Source of the DNA: a virus
Strand: one strand, 5' to 3'
DNA length: 39,598 bases
Virus record (IMG/VR): IMGVR_UViG_3300033985_000112
Span: 1 to 39,598 of that record
In this document: in pieces, positions 77 to 39,598 of the stretch
How positions within the stretch are numbered: position 1 is the first letter of the stretch
Layout: the number at the start of each line of letters is the position of its first letter
Program-made: the position numbers and the translations under genes
The notes under the pieces: model-generated
Seen by the model: the letters and a program-made list of their open reading frames with translations, nothing else
Told to the model about the DNA's origin: nothing
Databases searched by the model: none

Positions 77-1473
77 CTTTCAGTCCCCTTGCTTTCGGGT
101 CTTTATTTGGAACGTTCCTGTAACACCGTCATTACGCTGCTGATCTGCTCATTCTTTCAGTCCCCTTGCTTTCGGGTCTTTATTTGGAACCCGGGAGACG
201 ACAGAATATATCAACGGTGTGGCCCAAACTTTCAGTCCCCTTGCTTTCGGGTCTTTATTTGGAACGTAGAATAATGAGCAGGAATAAAGCAAAAGAAATA
301 TCTTTCAGTCCCCTTGCTTTCGGGTCTTTATTTGGAACGCGGAATGGTTTCCGCGCCATGGTTCGGTTTTTGGAGACTTTCAGTCCCCTTGCTTTCGGGT
401 CTTTATTTGGAACGTATCTGGGGATGGAAGATGAAGAAGCGGAGGCATCTTTCAGTCCCCTTGCTTTCGGGTCTTTATTTGGAACGAAGATATATACCGT
501 GTAGCCTACGGCCGGCGGGTATCGCTTTCAGTCCCCTTGCTTTCGGGTCTTTATTTGGAACCGAAGCATGGAAGATGTTTAAAATGAGGCGCTCATGGCC
601 TTTCAGTCCCCTTGCTTTCGGGTCTTTATTTGGAACTTTCCGCTATGACTTTTACGGTGCCAGTTTTTGCCGCATCTTTCAGTCCCCTTGCTTTCGGGTC
701 TTTATTTGGAACTATTAAACTTCCTGATATCTTCAAAGGATCTAAATTTATCTTTCAGTCCCCTTGCTTTCGGGTCTTTATTTGGAACTGTATCTTGTGG
801 TAAGTAATGCTGATAAGGTGAGAGAACTTTCAGTCCCCTTGCTTTCGGGTCTTTATTTGGAACCACTTTTGTATGAGAGAGATAATTTGCGGAGTGCGTA
901 GGGACTTTCAGTCCCCTTGCTTTCGGGTCTTTATTTGGAACGTTGACAGGACAAGATGTATTTCCTACGATACCATTAATCTTTCAGTCCCCTTGCTTTC
1001 GGGTCTTTATTTGGAACTAGATGGATAAGGATGTAATAGTTATAAATTCTTTTAGGAACTTTCAGTCCCCTTGCTTTCGGGTCTTTATTTGGAACTTTTT
1101 GCGATTTTTCCCCTAGCTGATATATGAGGGTGCTTTCAGTCCCCTTGCTTTCGGGTCTTTATTTGGAACAAAACTCCTCCTCAAAAATTTTATTTTTGGT
1201 GATTTTTAACTTTCAGTCCCCTTGCTTTCGGGTCTTTATTTGGAACCGCACTTTTTTGTCTACGGAATCTTCGCTCGCTCCGAGACTTTCAGTCCCCTTG
1301 CTTTCGGGTCTTTATTTGGAACCCTCTGTGGCATGAAAGACTGTTCCTGTTCCGGGGCCTTCTTTCAGTCCCCTTGCTTTCGGGTCTTTATTTGGAACGA
1401 ACTTCGAGATGGCATAACATTTTTAAAGGCGGTGCGCTTTCAGTCCCCTTGCTTTCGGGTCTTTATTTGGAAC
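77..1473 (-). CRISPR. CRISPR array, left part: 19 repeats, 18 whole spacers
   Basis: Nineteen copies of a 37-bp repeat start at 77, 154, 229, 302, 377, 449, 525, 600, 676, 752, 827, 905, 981, 1059, 1133, 1210, 1286, 1362 and 1437. On the plus strand each starts CTTTCAGTCCCC and ends TTTATTTGGAAC; I saw no variation between copies. Spacers are 35-41 nt and all different. Read on the minus strand the repeat starts GTTCC and ends ACTGAAAG, like the 8-nt 5' handle of type I-B/III crRNAs (ATTGAAAS), so transcription is probably right to left and the leader lies beyond the right edge. Repeat and spacer lengths fit type I-B. No cas gene is present to confirm this. The array is cut at its last spacer by the prophage. 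Confidence 0.97.
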
Positions 1474-2947
1474 TGCGGGTTCGACTCCCGCCTTCGGCAC
1501 CATTCCAATTCGCACAATCTTTTATAATAAAACTGACTTCAATATTATCCTTGCTAACAACTATCCTGTTGATGAAAATCGGCAGGATATTTTTTATGCC
1601 TTCTCCTTTGTCAAAATTGCATTTTAGCTCCATGAGCCATTTTCTTAAAGCTTCTTTCGAGACCGACGAAGTCTGCTGCAATTCGTTAATTCGTTCTTTA
1701 ATTCCCTCAACATAGAGCTCCAGTTCCTGAAGTTTTTTCCCTAGTTGTATTGATGCTACGCCATTCGCAATCATATTTACTATATTCGATATCTGCTGTT
1801 GGTTATTTTTTAACTCATTTTTCAAATATGTAAGCTCATGTGGCCGGTTGCTTTCTTGCCGTGAAATATATTCGGATACTTTTTCAATAATGCTGTCTAT
1901 GTTAGAGAATATCTGCTCCTTGACCATTTTCGTAACTTGCTCTTCTATTACTTCAGCTCGGATGCTATTCTGGCACTTGGAGCATCTATAATAAAAATAT
2001 CTGGCACCGTCTTTAGCGTTTTTTTGTGAATATCCAGCCATTTTATAGCCACATTCGCAAAATACAAGGCCAGACAGAAGATAATCCCTTACCGATAAAG
2101 ATTTCCCCCTCATGGGCGCTCTTCTCTTTATCTCCCGCTGGACCATATCGAACACCTCTTTTGATATTATGGCCGGGACCCCGTCTTCAACAAAAATTAC
2201 CTCATCCTTGGGCTTGTATCGTTTCATGTTTCTTTTACCTTCGTGGTATTTCCTTTGCGTCTTATTAAAAGCATATATGCCGGCATATTTTTCATTCATG
2301 AGAATACCGGGTATGGAATTGAAGACAAAGGGTTTTCCGAACTTATTTCTATACCCTTTTTGATTTAATATTTCAGCTATTTTTTTATAACCATAGCCAT
2401 CGAGACAGAGTTTGAAAATTTCCCTTACAATTCGAGCCTCTTTTTCATTTACCACATAGCGCTTATCGACAATATCATATCCCAGGGGAGCATATCCTCC
2501 ATTAAACCTGGCCTTGAGAGCATTTTGTTTTAGCCCCTTCATGACTTCCTGGGCAAGGTTCCTTGAGTAATATTCGGCAAATGATTCCAGGATCCCCTCC
2601 AATAATCCACCTTCAGGGGAATCATCAATAGGCTGCATTACATAAATGACTCTTATTCCATATTTCCGCAGGGCCGATTTATATATAGCAGCATCGTAAC
2701 GGTTCCTGGCAAATCTATCCACCTTGTGAACCAGCACAACATCGAATATTTTCTTTTTAGCATCGGATATCATCTGTTGAAAGGCATCCCTCAAATCGGT
2801 TTGGCCAGATATGGCTTCGTCGATATATTCTTTAACTATAAATATATTATTTTTTTCAGCATATTTTCTTATGTCCATTAGCTGTGCCTCGATGGATTCT
2901 TCCCTTTGCATGTCTGAACTGAATCTTGCATAAGCTGCTGCCCTCAT
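1463..2947 (-). CDS. int: Large serine recombinase (phage integrase)
   Basis: This 494-residue protein would catalyse attP x attB recombination through a 5'-phosphoserine intermediate. The N-terminal resolvase domain has YARFSSD (Ser10 nucleophile) and KVDRFAR; a recombinase domain follows (FNGGYAPLGYDI, about 148-240), then a zinc ribbon (C297, C299, C322, C325) and a coiled coil (about 345-420). The start at 2947 is chosen because GGAGGG lies just upstream; an in-frame ATG at 2977 lacks a good site. It is the last gene of the leftward lysogeny block. Unusually, the frame crosses attL: the last eight codons are encoded by spacer and repeat, and its TAA is inside the CRISPR repeat. In circular phage DNA the same frame would instead end with a phage-encoded tail of about 15 residues. 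Confidence 0.95.
   Translation of the reverse strand: MRAAAYARFSSDMQREESIEAQLMDIRKYAEKNNIFIVKEYIDEAISGQTDLRDAFQQMISDAKKKIFDVVLVHKVDRFARNRYDAAIYKSALRKYGIRVIYVMQPIDDSPEGGLLEGILESFAEYYSRNLAQEVMKGLKQNALKARFNGGYAPLGYDIVDKRYVVNEKEARIVREIFKLCLDGYGYKKIAEILNQKGYRNKFGKPFVFNSIPGILMNEKYAGIYAFNKTQRKYHEGKRNMKRYKPKDEVIFVEDGVPAIISKEVFDMVQREIKRRAPMRGKSLSVRDYLLSGLVFCECGYKMAGYSQKNAKDGARYFYYRCSKCQNSIRAEVIEEQVTKMVKEQIFSNIDSIIEKVSEYISRQESNRPHELTYLKNELKNNQQQISNIVNMIANGVASIQLGKKLQELELYVEGIKERINELQQTSSVSKEALRKWLMELKCNFDKGEGIKNILPIFINRIVVSKDNIEVSFIIKDCANWNGAEGGSRTRSSK
1474..1502 (+). other. Left half of the split spacer: tRNA-Leu 3' end, with attL core
   Basis: After the repeat ending at 1473 come 17 nt plus the core CCTTCGGCACCA (1491-1502). 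Together they read as a T-stem (GCGGG), T-loop TTCGACT, T-stem (CCCGC), acceptor strand CTTCGGC, discriminator A and CCA. This matches the 3' end of bacterial tRNA-Leu genes whose acceptor starts GCCGAAG. The rest of the tRNA is absent, so this is not a tRNA gene but a spacer made from one. The core recurs at 39168-39179, and bases flanking the core differ at the two ends, so the shared segment is exactly 12 bp. This is the left attachment junction. Confidence 0.9.
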
Positions 2948-2973
2948 GGCAAACCCTCCAAAATAAATTAAAA

Positions 2974-3501
2974 TCATATGTATGTATTTTTTTTGAGCAT
3001 ATTATGCCGCTGGAGGCGAATCCTCATGACTTCATGAGAAACTTGAAAAACTTCTGCAAGTCTATCTATATCTATTATTTTGACTCTTTTAAGCAAAGTT
3101 TTCGGTACCAGAAATTCACCGGCGAATTCATCAGCCTCCCGGTCCAAAATTGCTTTTTCCGATTTAGATAGCAAGCTTAGATTATATGTATCGTAATGCC
3201 CAAGTACGACATGTCCAATTTCATGGGATAATGAAAAACGGTACCGTGCTGGGTATTGGATTTTTTTCCATGGATCAACGAAAACGGCATATCTATTGTT
3301 GTAATATGGTGTTGTTACCGCTTCTATCCTGTATGCTTCTTCGGGGAAATTAAGGTTTACAATTTTCCATTTATATTTTTTGATTATTGCGATGGGATCA
3401 ACGGGAGGGAAATCGAAATGTCTCGCCAGGTCCAGAGCCTTAAATCTTGCATACCCCCAGCGTACATGATGAGGATGCTGATTATACCAAATGTTTTGCA
3501 A
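2974..3501 (-). CDS. ImmA/IrrE family metallo-endopeptidase
   Basis: The protein has the zinc-protease motif HEIGH (residues 93-97) and a downstream acidic ligand in READEFAGEFLVP, the signature of ImmA/IrrE (Peptidase_M78) proteins. In ICEBs1-like systems ImmA cleaves the CI-like repressor to induce the element, so the likely substrate is the repressor encoded at 4894-5313. I prefer the TTG start at 3501 (175 aa) because AGAAGGGGG precedes it; an ATG at 3561 would add 20 residues without a clear ribosome site. It lies 26 bp upstream of the integrase start, so the two are probably co-transcribed. Confidence 0.85.
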   Translation of the reverse strand: MQNIWYNQHPHHVRWGYARFKALDLARHFDFPPVDPIAIIKKYKWKIVNLNFPEEAYRIEAVTTPYYNNRYAVFVDPWKKIQYPARYRFSLSHEIGHVVLGHYDTYNLSLLSKSEKAILDREADEFAGEFLVPKTLLKRVKIIDIDRLAEVFQVSHEVMRIRLQRHNMLKKNTYI

Positions 3502-4406: not shown

Positions 4407-4829
4407 CTAAGCTATTATGGTTTGATAAGCTCCATTAAATTCAATATTGCATTCTTTTAAAAAGTCAAATAATGCTTTATTTACGTTATTTATATCAACA
4501 TCATTTACCGCATATTTTTTATCGTTGTCCACACCATCCCAAAAGTGCTTATGCGGAATTGTGATTCGTTCTCCGTTCTCTGTTTCGTAATAATGTTTAA
4601 AATCAAACTGTCTTATTACAACTGATTTTTTGTAAAGAAGAGAGAAACTATGCCTGGAACCCTTAGTTCCTCTTAATTCAAGTTCAATTCCATCGTCAGT
4701 TAACACGGTAGCTTTAATATAGGCTCTGATTTCACCATTTTGGCTGGATTCTACTTTCCAAGATAAAGAATCGTCCGCGATGTATTTTTTAGCCCTATAG
4801 ATTCTGTCAGCTTCTTCCTGGGTAACCAA
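4407..4829 (-). CDS. Unrecognised protein in lysogeny block
   Basis: 140 residues, TTG start with AAAGGGGGA upstream. I do not recognise the family with confidence. The sequence has a beta-rich middle (ELELRGTKGSRHSFSLLYKK) and a motif ITIPHKHFWDG that recalls small proteins with 'H.NPDG..i..PHiH' signatures found beside DUF1828 proteins. No signal peptide or membrane segment is seen. It is the first gene of a two-gene unit with the interrupted DUF1828-like gene and has its own strong promoter, so expression in the lysogen is likely; a role in superinfection exclusion or host modification is only a guess. Confidence 0.7.
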   Translation of the reverse strand: MVTQEEADRIYRAKKYIADDSLSWKVESSQNGEIRAYIKATVLTDDGIELELRGTKGSRHSFSLLYKKSVVIRQFDFKHYYETENGERITIPHKHFWDGVDNDKKYAVNDVDINNVNKALFDFLKECNIEFNGAYQTIIA

Positions 4830-13867: not shown

Positions 13868-14424
13868 AAAAGACGGAAACCGTGCAGCTTTTAGCCGTAA
13901 TAAATGCTGCATTCCCAAACATGCAAGTTACAGAGGCCATGGTAAGCCTTTGGCATGAGCTTTTAGGAGACCTTAACTTTGGTCTTGTCAAAGCCGCGGT
14001 AAAAAAACTGCTTCTGGAAAGCCCGTATCCGCCTACAATCGCCGATATACGCAGACAGGCCGTAGAAATTGCAACGCCGCCCGAAGACCGAATCGATGTT
14101 GCCGAGGCATGGGGTGAAGTCGAGAGGGCGATCCGGCTTTACGGATACTATCGGGAAGCCGAGGCCCTGGCGAGCATGTCACCACGGACGGCAAAAGTGG
14201 TGAAATACATGGGCTGGCAGGAGATATGTCTTTCAGAAGAGCCAGGAGTTATACGGGGGCAGTTTTTGAAGATGTATGCCCAGGTATCGGAACGGGAGCA
14301 GAAAGAGCGGCTATTACCGGCGAGCTTGAAAGAAGATATAAAGCGGCTGAGTGAAGACATGAGCATGAAAATGCTGGAAGGAGGCAAAAAGGAAGATGAG
14401 GAACATTGGCTTGCAATACAGTGA
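13864..14424 (+). CDS. Replicative helicase loader/inhibitor (G39P-like)
   Basis: 186 residues, ATG overlapping the previous stop, AGGAGGAAG upstream. The N-terminal part (MVSLWHELLGDLNFGLVKAA, then SPYPPTIADIRRQA) is the pattern of phage helicase loader/inhibitors like SPP1 G39P, which deliver DnaB-type helicase to the initiator complex. No phage helicase gene is seen, so host DnaB is the likely partner. Positions 14019-14056 are 31/38 identical to the CRISPR spacer at 39374-39411. Confidence 0.8.
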   Translation: MKKTETVQLLAVINAAFPNMQVTEAMVSLWHELLGDLNFGLVKAAVKKLLLESPYPPTIADIRRQAVEIATPPEDRIDVAEAWGEVERAIRLYGYYREAEALASMSPRTAKVVKYMGWQEICLSEEPGVIRGQFLKMYAQVSEREQKERLLPASLKEDIKRLSEDMSMKMLEGGKKEDEEHWLAIQ

Positions 14425-39076: not shown

Positions 39077-39167
39077 GCATAAAAAAGCTACTTTATAAAA
39101 GCACAAAAAATAGTAGTATCACTTTACAAAACGGCTAGTATGGTATGCGAACAGATAAAGTGTCGCT
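39077..39167. other. Prophage right arm, non-coding
   Basis: 91 bp between the last terminator and the core. AT-rich, with an inverted CTACT...AGTAG pair near 39087-39116. On the minus strand, in circular phage DNA, its last part would encode the alternative integrase C-terminus. It should contain the attP half-site. No gene seen. Confidence 0.5.
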
Positions 39168-39188
39168 CCTTCGGCACCAGATATGATA
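39168..39188 (+). other. attR core and right half of the split spacer
   Basis: Core CCTTCGGCACCA (39168-39179) followed by GATATGATA, then the next repeat at 39189. Adding these 9 nt to the 29 nt at 1474-1502 rebuilds a 38-nt spacer, inside the 35-41 nt range of all other spacers. Confidence 0.9.
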
Positions 39189-39598
39189 CTTTCAGTCCCC
39201 TTGCTTTCGGGTCTTTATTTGGAACAGTATCAGGCTGTTGGAGGAACGGGAAGCAAGTCAGCTTTCAGTCCCCTTGCTTTCGGGTCTTTATTTGGAACTC
39301 AATGATATGGGCTGATATTGGTAACCTATTGGCAAACTTTCAGTCCCCTTGCTTTCGGGTCTTTATTTGGAACAAGCCCATATCCGCCGACAATAGCGGA
39401 TATACGAAAGCCTTTCAGTCCCCTTGCTTTCGGGTCTTTATTTGGAACGGTGACGCTGACATGAGTACCAGAGCAGACATAATGAACTTTCAGTCCCCTT
39501 GCTTTCGGGTCTTTATTTGGAACTAATTGAAAATGCAATGGGTTATGATGCCAAAGATGATCTTTCAGTCCCCTTGCTTTCGGGTCTTTATTTGGAAC
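39189..39598 (-). CRISPR. CRISPR array, right part: 6 repeats, 5 whole spacers, continues
   Basis: Repeats identical to those on the left start at 39189, 39262, 39337, 39412, 39487 and 39562; the last ends at the final base. Spacers are 36-38 nt. By the repeat orientation this is the leader-proximal, more recently acquired side. The spacer at 39374-39411 resembles the prophage helicase-loader gene and the spacer at 39299-39336 resembles its portal gene. Confidence 0.97.

Follow-up and report, generated by a model that had tools for sequence, protein, structure and literature searches.

A prophage that splits a CRISPR spacer carrying the 3' end of a tRNA-Leu gene

How does a prophage come to lie in the middle of a CRISPR array, and what did its integrase recognize there? 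The question is raised by IMGVR_UViG_3300033985_000112, a complete IMG/VR virus record of 39,598 nucleotides, which was analysed over its whole length (the window) and both ends of which lie in one CRISPR array.

A prophage within one spacer of the array

The array comprises 25 exact 37-nt repeats, of which 19 make up the left part (77-1473) and 6 the right part (39189-39598), and 23 intact spacers of 35-41 nt (18 left and 5 right). We searched for the exact repeat in an 84,980-species collection and found it in one organism, the Tepidanaerobacteraceae MAG A05DMB13, and we observed 0 matches in IMG/VR. No spacers are common to the window array and the arrays of this MAG. The MAG arrays with this repeat adjoin cas6-cas8b-cas7b and cas4-cas1-cas5d-cas7d, and I-B genes are present. 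The identical repeats and regular spacers of the window are those of a CRISPR array, putatively of type I from an I-B/I-D neighbourhood, and the record itself consists of this array and a prophage. Array orientation was taken from the degenerate trailer repeats and the gene order at the homologous MAG array, in which, viewed in the window orientation, the degenerate repeats are at the left and cas4-cas1 at the right. Because of this layout, the leader should lie to the right and the crRNAs should be read from the minus strand. The features of the window are as follows.

77-1473, minus strand: left part of the array, putatively leader-distal and older, with 19 repeats and 18 intact spacers (exact 37-nt repeats)
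1463-2977, minus strand: large serine integrase (int), best start probably 2947 (Pfam Resolvase, Recombinase and Zn_ribbon_recom; frames)
1474-1502, plus strand: left piece of the invaded spacer, a 29-nt tRNA-Leu 3' end including CCA, and left side of attL (29/29 to tRNA-Leu(CAA) of MAG A05DMB13)
1491-1502, plus strand: att core CCTTCGGCACCA, attL copy (identical 12-mer at 39168-39179; the core recurs in relatives)
1503-1528, plus strand: attP arm adjoining int, TTCCAATTCGCACAATC... (homologous to arms of the relatives G024, G025 and G027)
1503-39167, no strand: prophage, 37,665 bp between cores (~37.7 kb), with a tailed-phage gene set (PHROGs)
14019-14056, plus strand: protospacer-like stretch of prophage DNA with AGG after it (5'-CCT PAM when read on the crRNA strand); the gene at 13864-14424 matches a helicase-loader PHROG
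39133-39167, plus strand: second attP arm, ...GCGAACAGATAAAGTGTCGCT (homologous to GCGAAYAGTT..AAGTGTCGTA and related arms of G024, G025 and G027)
39168-39179, plus strand: att core CCTTCGGCACCA, attR copy (identical to the attL 12-mer)
39180-39188, plus strand: right piece of the invaded spacer, GATATGATA, putatively PAM-proximal and the crRNA seed end (8/9 identical downstream of tRNA-Leu(CAA) in G310, G011 and G012)
39189-39598, minus strand: right part of the array, putatively leader-proximal and younger, with 6 repeats and 5 spacers, ended by the record end (exact repeats)
39374-39411, minus strand: younger-side spacer resembling the phage's own helicase-loader-like gene, 31/38 (sequence match)

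The PHROG matches of the prophage include terminase, portal, head protease, major head, tape measure, baseplate and endolysin. The 9.5-kb contig IMGVR_UViG_3300034683_000280 (L218) also carries a terminase with 100% identity to that of the window phage. Positions 1-76 of the window are not repeat-spacer sequence, and one frame there resembles a transposase fragment (LHGAIDDATGKHHLL*).

When the prophage is removed on paper, positions 1474-1502 and 39180-39188 join into a 38-nt spacer, TGCGGGTTCGACTCCCGCCTTCGGCACCA-GATATGATA, that starts directly after the 19th left repeat (1437-1473) and falls within the length range of the other 23. Its first 29 nt read T-GCGGG-TTCGACT-CCCGC-CTTCGGC-A-CCA, corresponding to T-stem, T-loop, T-stem, acceptor strand, discriminator and CCA of a tRNA-Leu, and 9 nt follow. 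Since ARAGORN found no tRNA within the window, this stretch is only a 3' tRNA fragment. The 29-mer is present once in MAG A05DMB13, as the exact 3' end of tRNA-Leu(CAA), and the same 29 nt, or a version with 1-2 differences, occur in most tRNA-Leu(CAA) genes of the order. The chance of an exact 29-nt match in 3.2 Mb is ~2e-11, which excludes a chance match. A reading of the sequence made beforehand (the sequence-only reading) had taken these 29 nt for a tRNA-Leu 3' end and had proposed that the phage arms outside the core do not continue the tRNA. The former is borne out by the 29/29 match in a MAG with an identical repeat, and the latter agrees with our comparison of the arms. This confirms that the prophage splits one spacer carrying a tRNA-Leu 3' end.

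The integrase and its native attachment site

The integrase matches PF00239, PF07508 and PF13408, all above cut-off, and has the resolvase, recombinase and zinc-ribbon domains and the size (about 450-700 aa) of a large serine integrase. Its frame crosses attL and its stop codon lies inside repeat 19. Because the frame crosses the att core, the C-terminus changes on integration, the last residues being GAEGGSRTRSSK in the prophage and GAEGATLYLFAYHTSRFVK in the joined phage form; the two C-terminal versions have 504 and 511 aa when the count starts at 2977. Relatives in IMG/VR were obtained with an alignment query, a single-sequence query having given none, and the closest are 69% identical (3 records) and 57-58% identical (3 records). 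All six carry CCTTCGGCACCA or the two-base variant CCACCGGCACCA beside int. The 57-58% relatives have tRNA-Leu-type cores, and their records end before the tRNA side. In G023, a 69% relative, the core beside int adjoins a LexA/repressor-like reading frame and no tRNA (L076 about 4440-4640), an exception suggesting that the integrase family may use other sites too. More distant relatives (about 40-46%) are found at other stable-RNA 3' ends, chiefly tmRNA; those at tmRNA include G021, G018 and Moorella phage MCACPph1, and their int frame likewise runs through the att site.

The sequence-only reading had asked whether this integrase family normally sits at tRNA-Leu, and G024 (IMGVR_UViG_3300026776_000003; integrase 69% identical) provides such a case. 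This complete prophage occupies tRNA-Leu(CAA) and shares the 12-nt core with the window, so that integration specific to tRNA-Leu(CAA) was found through this record. One of its ends consists of tRNA-Leu(CAA) (called by ARAGORN, at attL), core and phage arm, and the other of the second arm, core and host flank; G025 carries both arms joined, in the attP form. Comparison with relatives shows both the 12-nt core and the conserved arms, and the arms of the window phage, G024, G025 and G027 are homologous (GCGAAYAG....AAGTGTCGYW on one side and TTnCWATTCGCAMAA on the other). Because G024 is a complete prophage there with homologous attP arms, the native attB is predicted to be the tRNA-Leu(CAA) 3' end, which the spacer would mimic. 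Behind the G024 prophage lie arm repeats, TTTGCAAACATTTTGCAAAC (L174 about 1570-1600), that are the same as those beside tyrosine-integrase elements at other tRNAs, and two elements possibly stand in tandem at this one tRNA.

The attP of the window phage is turned round relative to int. In the window int lies beside the TTCCAATTCGC arm, whereas in G024, G025 and G027 it lies beside the GCGAAYAG arm (window 1503-1528 and 39133-39167 compared with L077/L174, L078/L167 and L080/L161). Thus, relative to these, the window prophage is inserted the other way round at the same tRNA end. Its excised attP would contain GTCGCT-CCTTCGGCACCA-TTCCAATTCGC. Only 14/25 pairs of the attP show inverted symmetry.

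The best explanation of the locus, and one that we consider very probable as a whole, is that a tRNA-Leu(CAA) attB was captured as a spacer and then used as attB by the phage; this scheme is read from the sequence of one record. The large serine integrase would belong to a phage whose normal attB is the tRNA-Leu(CAA) 3' end. Earlier, the host CRISPR system would have acquired a spacer composed of the terminal 29 nt of a tRNA gene of this kind and 9 nt downstream. This spacer, which supplies the core CCTTCGGCACCA and the full tRNA-side half of attB, would act as a second attB, and the phage would integrate by recombination between attP and spacer, a reaction probably carried out by this integrase. 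Because the spacer differs from native loci beyond the core, the integrase would have to tolerate changes in that half of attB.

The source of the invaded spacer

Capture as a spacer would have taken place at a tRNA-Leu attachment site of the cell itself or of a related cell, or at one joined to another integrative element. In MAG A05DMB13, the 9 nt after the CCA of tRNA-Leu(CAA) are TTTTTATTT, not GATATGATA. In G011 and G012, which are of the same family, tRNA-Leu(CAA) is followed by GATATGACA and then by a terminator-like hairpin, and ATG, not AGG, stands at the PAM place. The best match is one further locus from a 398-genome phylum sample, G310, in which tRNA-Leu(CAA) is followed by GATATGACAAGG. 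A Phage_integrase-family (tyrosine integrase) gene lies 140 bp from this tRNA, and after it come arm repeats, TGCAAACATTTTGCAAAC, that recur beside relatives of the G310 integrase at other tRNA genes. By its sequence, then, the G310 match is probably the junction of a tRNA with another element. We checked relatives of the G310 tyrosine integrase for the same tRNA-Leu flank and found none.

These loci bear on several expectations of the sequence-only reading. It had asked for a tRNA-Leu followed by the 9-nt flank of the spacer, and tRNA-Leu(CAA) followed by GATATGAYA was found, with 37/38 identities in G310 and 36/38 in G011 and G012. It had also anticipated AGG after the flank, which is 5'-CCT on the crRNA strand, and the best match has it (40/41 including AGG). 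That reading would have taken an unrelated phage or plasmid gene matching all 38 nt perfectly as evidence to the contrary, and such a gene was searched for and not found; indeed, no exact 38-nt match occurs in the genomes, phages and plasmids searched. The near-full-length matches listed for the 38-mer in phages and plasmids are about 82-91% identical, and the top phage matches among those listed are mostly annotated tRNA-Leu, tRNA-Thr and tmRNA. In IMG/VR, we observed 0 copies of the exact tRNA-flank junction (related 18-mer) and 0 of the exact phage attP/attL junction. The earlier account, that CRISPR copied an integration site and the phage followed, is supported.

The AGG/CCT PAM is a weak estimate from two cases. 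Besides G310, it is drawn from the match of 39374-39411 to 14019-14056, which is the only other protospacer-like match of the array and is also followed by AGG. In C. difficile, CCT is a proven PAM for the I-B system (PMC8406132). The younger spacer at 39374-39411 may itself reflect past immunity against a relative of the phage now settled in the array.

There is about an even chance that the source of the spacer was the attP or attL of an integrative element docked at tRNA-Leu(CAA). It would then represent ordinary anti-element immunity in which the attachment site was copied by chance, and, with the crRNA seed end in the flank, a host tRNA whose flank differs would escape targeting. If the host flank resembles that of the MAG, for instance, the crRNA seed TATCATATC would not match the cell's own tRNA gene and the spacer would be harmless. 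The neighbouring integrase gene, TGCAAACATTTTGCAAAC repeats and CCT PAM of the G310 match agree with an element as the source, as do the use of CCT as a proven I-B PAM in C. difficile and the I-B genes of the related MAG. At least five younger spacers followed the tRNA spacer, which suggests that it was tolerated or already broken. However, GATATGACA is native after tRNA-Leu(CAA) in G011 and G012, with no integrase near it in G011, so the G310 flank could be native too and G310 leaves the 9 nt as either element or chromosome; in addition, the junction is absent from IMG/VR. An element source would not hold if tRNA-Leu(CAA) of the host strain were followed by exactly GATATGATAAGG.

A chromosomal tRNA-Leu(CAA) locus, the host's own or that of a related cell, has a somewhat less than even chance of being the source, and self-acquisition of the spacer is thus possible. 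In two genomes of the same family, native loci reach 36/38 with a terminator-like hairpin right behind, and spacers that target the chromosome of their own cell are generally common (PMC6990116, PMC8616872). Those native loci nevertheless carry ATG rather than AGG, the flank differs in the MAG that shares the repeat, and no exact match was found anywhere searched. A self spacer with a good PAM would be autoimmune, and insertion of the prophage would have disarmed it; a functional one would be expected to have disappeared ahead of the five later acquisitions, except in the case of an inactive system or of a prophage that was already in place. The two sources are nearly equal, with a slight edge to an element because of the PAM and the at least five younger spacers.

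It is very unlikely that the record is an assembly chimera in which a prophage contig was wrongly joined to a CRISPR contig. Repeats could mislead an assembler, and the leftmost 76 nt are not repeat-spacer sequence, but both junctions share the 12-nt core that relatives use, and the two halves sum to one spacer of normal length, which is not expected from a chimera at two ends. Serine integrases are known to use pseudo-sites, but insertion at a chance 12-bp match in the array, with the tRNA likeness irrelevant, is extremely improbable given that the 29-nt match is exact and starts at the spacer border and that a close integrase relative sits in tRNA-Leu(CAA). A coincidental tRNA resemblance was rejected on the numbers (~2e-11) and by the position of G024.

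Consequences for the array and relation to known systems

Returning to capture of a tRNA-Leu attB as a spacer and its use by the phage, we considered the fate of the array. The crRNA of the invaded spacer would be lost, and the prophage would have cut the 18 older spacers from the leader. The int gene, reading leftward, would be the only transcription unit that enters these older spacers in the crRNA sense. Because the int stop codon lies inside the first repeat, there is no room for a terminator between int and the array; likewise, a terminator scan of the int strand found none between int and the older array and only a weak site inside the gene.

Attachment sites in tRNA and tmRNA genes and spacers that match the chromosome are both well known. 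The prophage phi315.1 lies in the CRISPR1 terminal repeat of Streptococcus pyogenes MGAS315/SSI-1 (PMC3089615). As in that case, the window prophage is site-specifically integrated in a CRISPR locus and separates its parts, but whereas the phi315.1 core matched the repeat, the window core matches a spacer that apparently copies a tRNA attB, and the enzyme is a serine integrase. The G024 prophage shares with the window a 69% identical integrase, the 12-nt core and homologous attP arms; unlike the window prophage, in which int adjoins the tRNA piece, it sits in the tRNA gene itself with int at the tRNA-distal end. Serine-integrase elements at tmRNA 3' ends (Moorella phage MCACPph1, G021 and IMG/VR relatives) are similar in having related integrases (about 40-46%), a stable-RNA 3' end and an int frame through att, but they occupy a tmRNA site with no CRISPR involved, whereas the window site copies tRNA-Leu. 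Finally, self-targeting or chromosome-derived spacers (PMC6990116) likewise match a chromosomal gene; in contrast to them, the window spacer would later have acted as an integration site, and self-origin is only a candidate for it.

The locus points to a cost of CRISPR memory, in that a spacer is live DNA, usable as an attachment site if it copies one; here an immune record would have given a virus its place to land. In the literature searched, a set that most subscription journals fell outside, we found no description of insertion into an attB-copying spacer or of a spacer serving as attB. The 3' ends of tRNA genes are targets common to many elements, and for this reason spacers from them can be spare landing pads. 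We suggest, tentatively, that CRISPR adaptation sometimes generates new attB sites in the array by copying attachment sites, either those of a competitor (attP or attL) or the attB of the cell itself. Integration of phages with the same target would then silence the older spacers, bring these under the integrase promoter and, in the self version, also disarm a lethal anti-tRNA spacer. With one integrase, one tRNA site and one spacer mimic, the locus offers a clean test system for how much of attB a serine integrase needs, and for the fate of an array cut in two. In MAG A05DMB13, we also observed a spacer (L003 about 2956-2994; L017) that holds 20-22 nt of the repeat of another of its arrays, so that here a CRISPR array itself was the source of a spacer.
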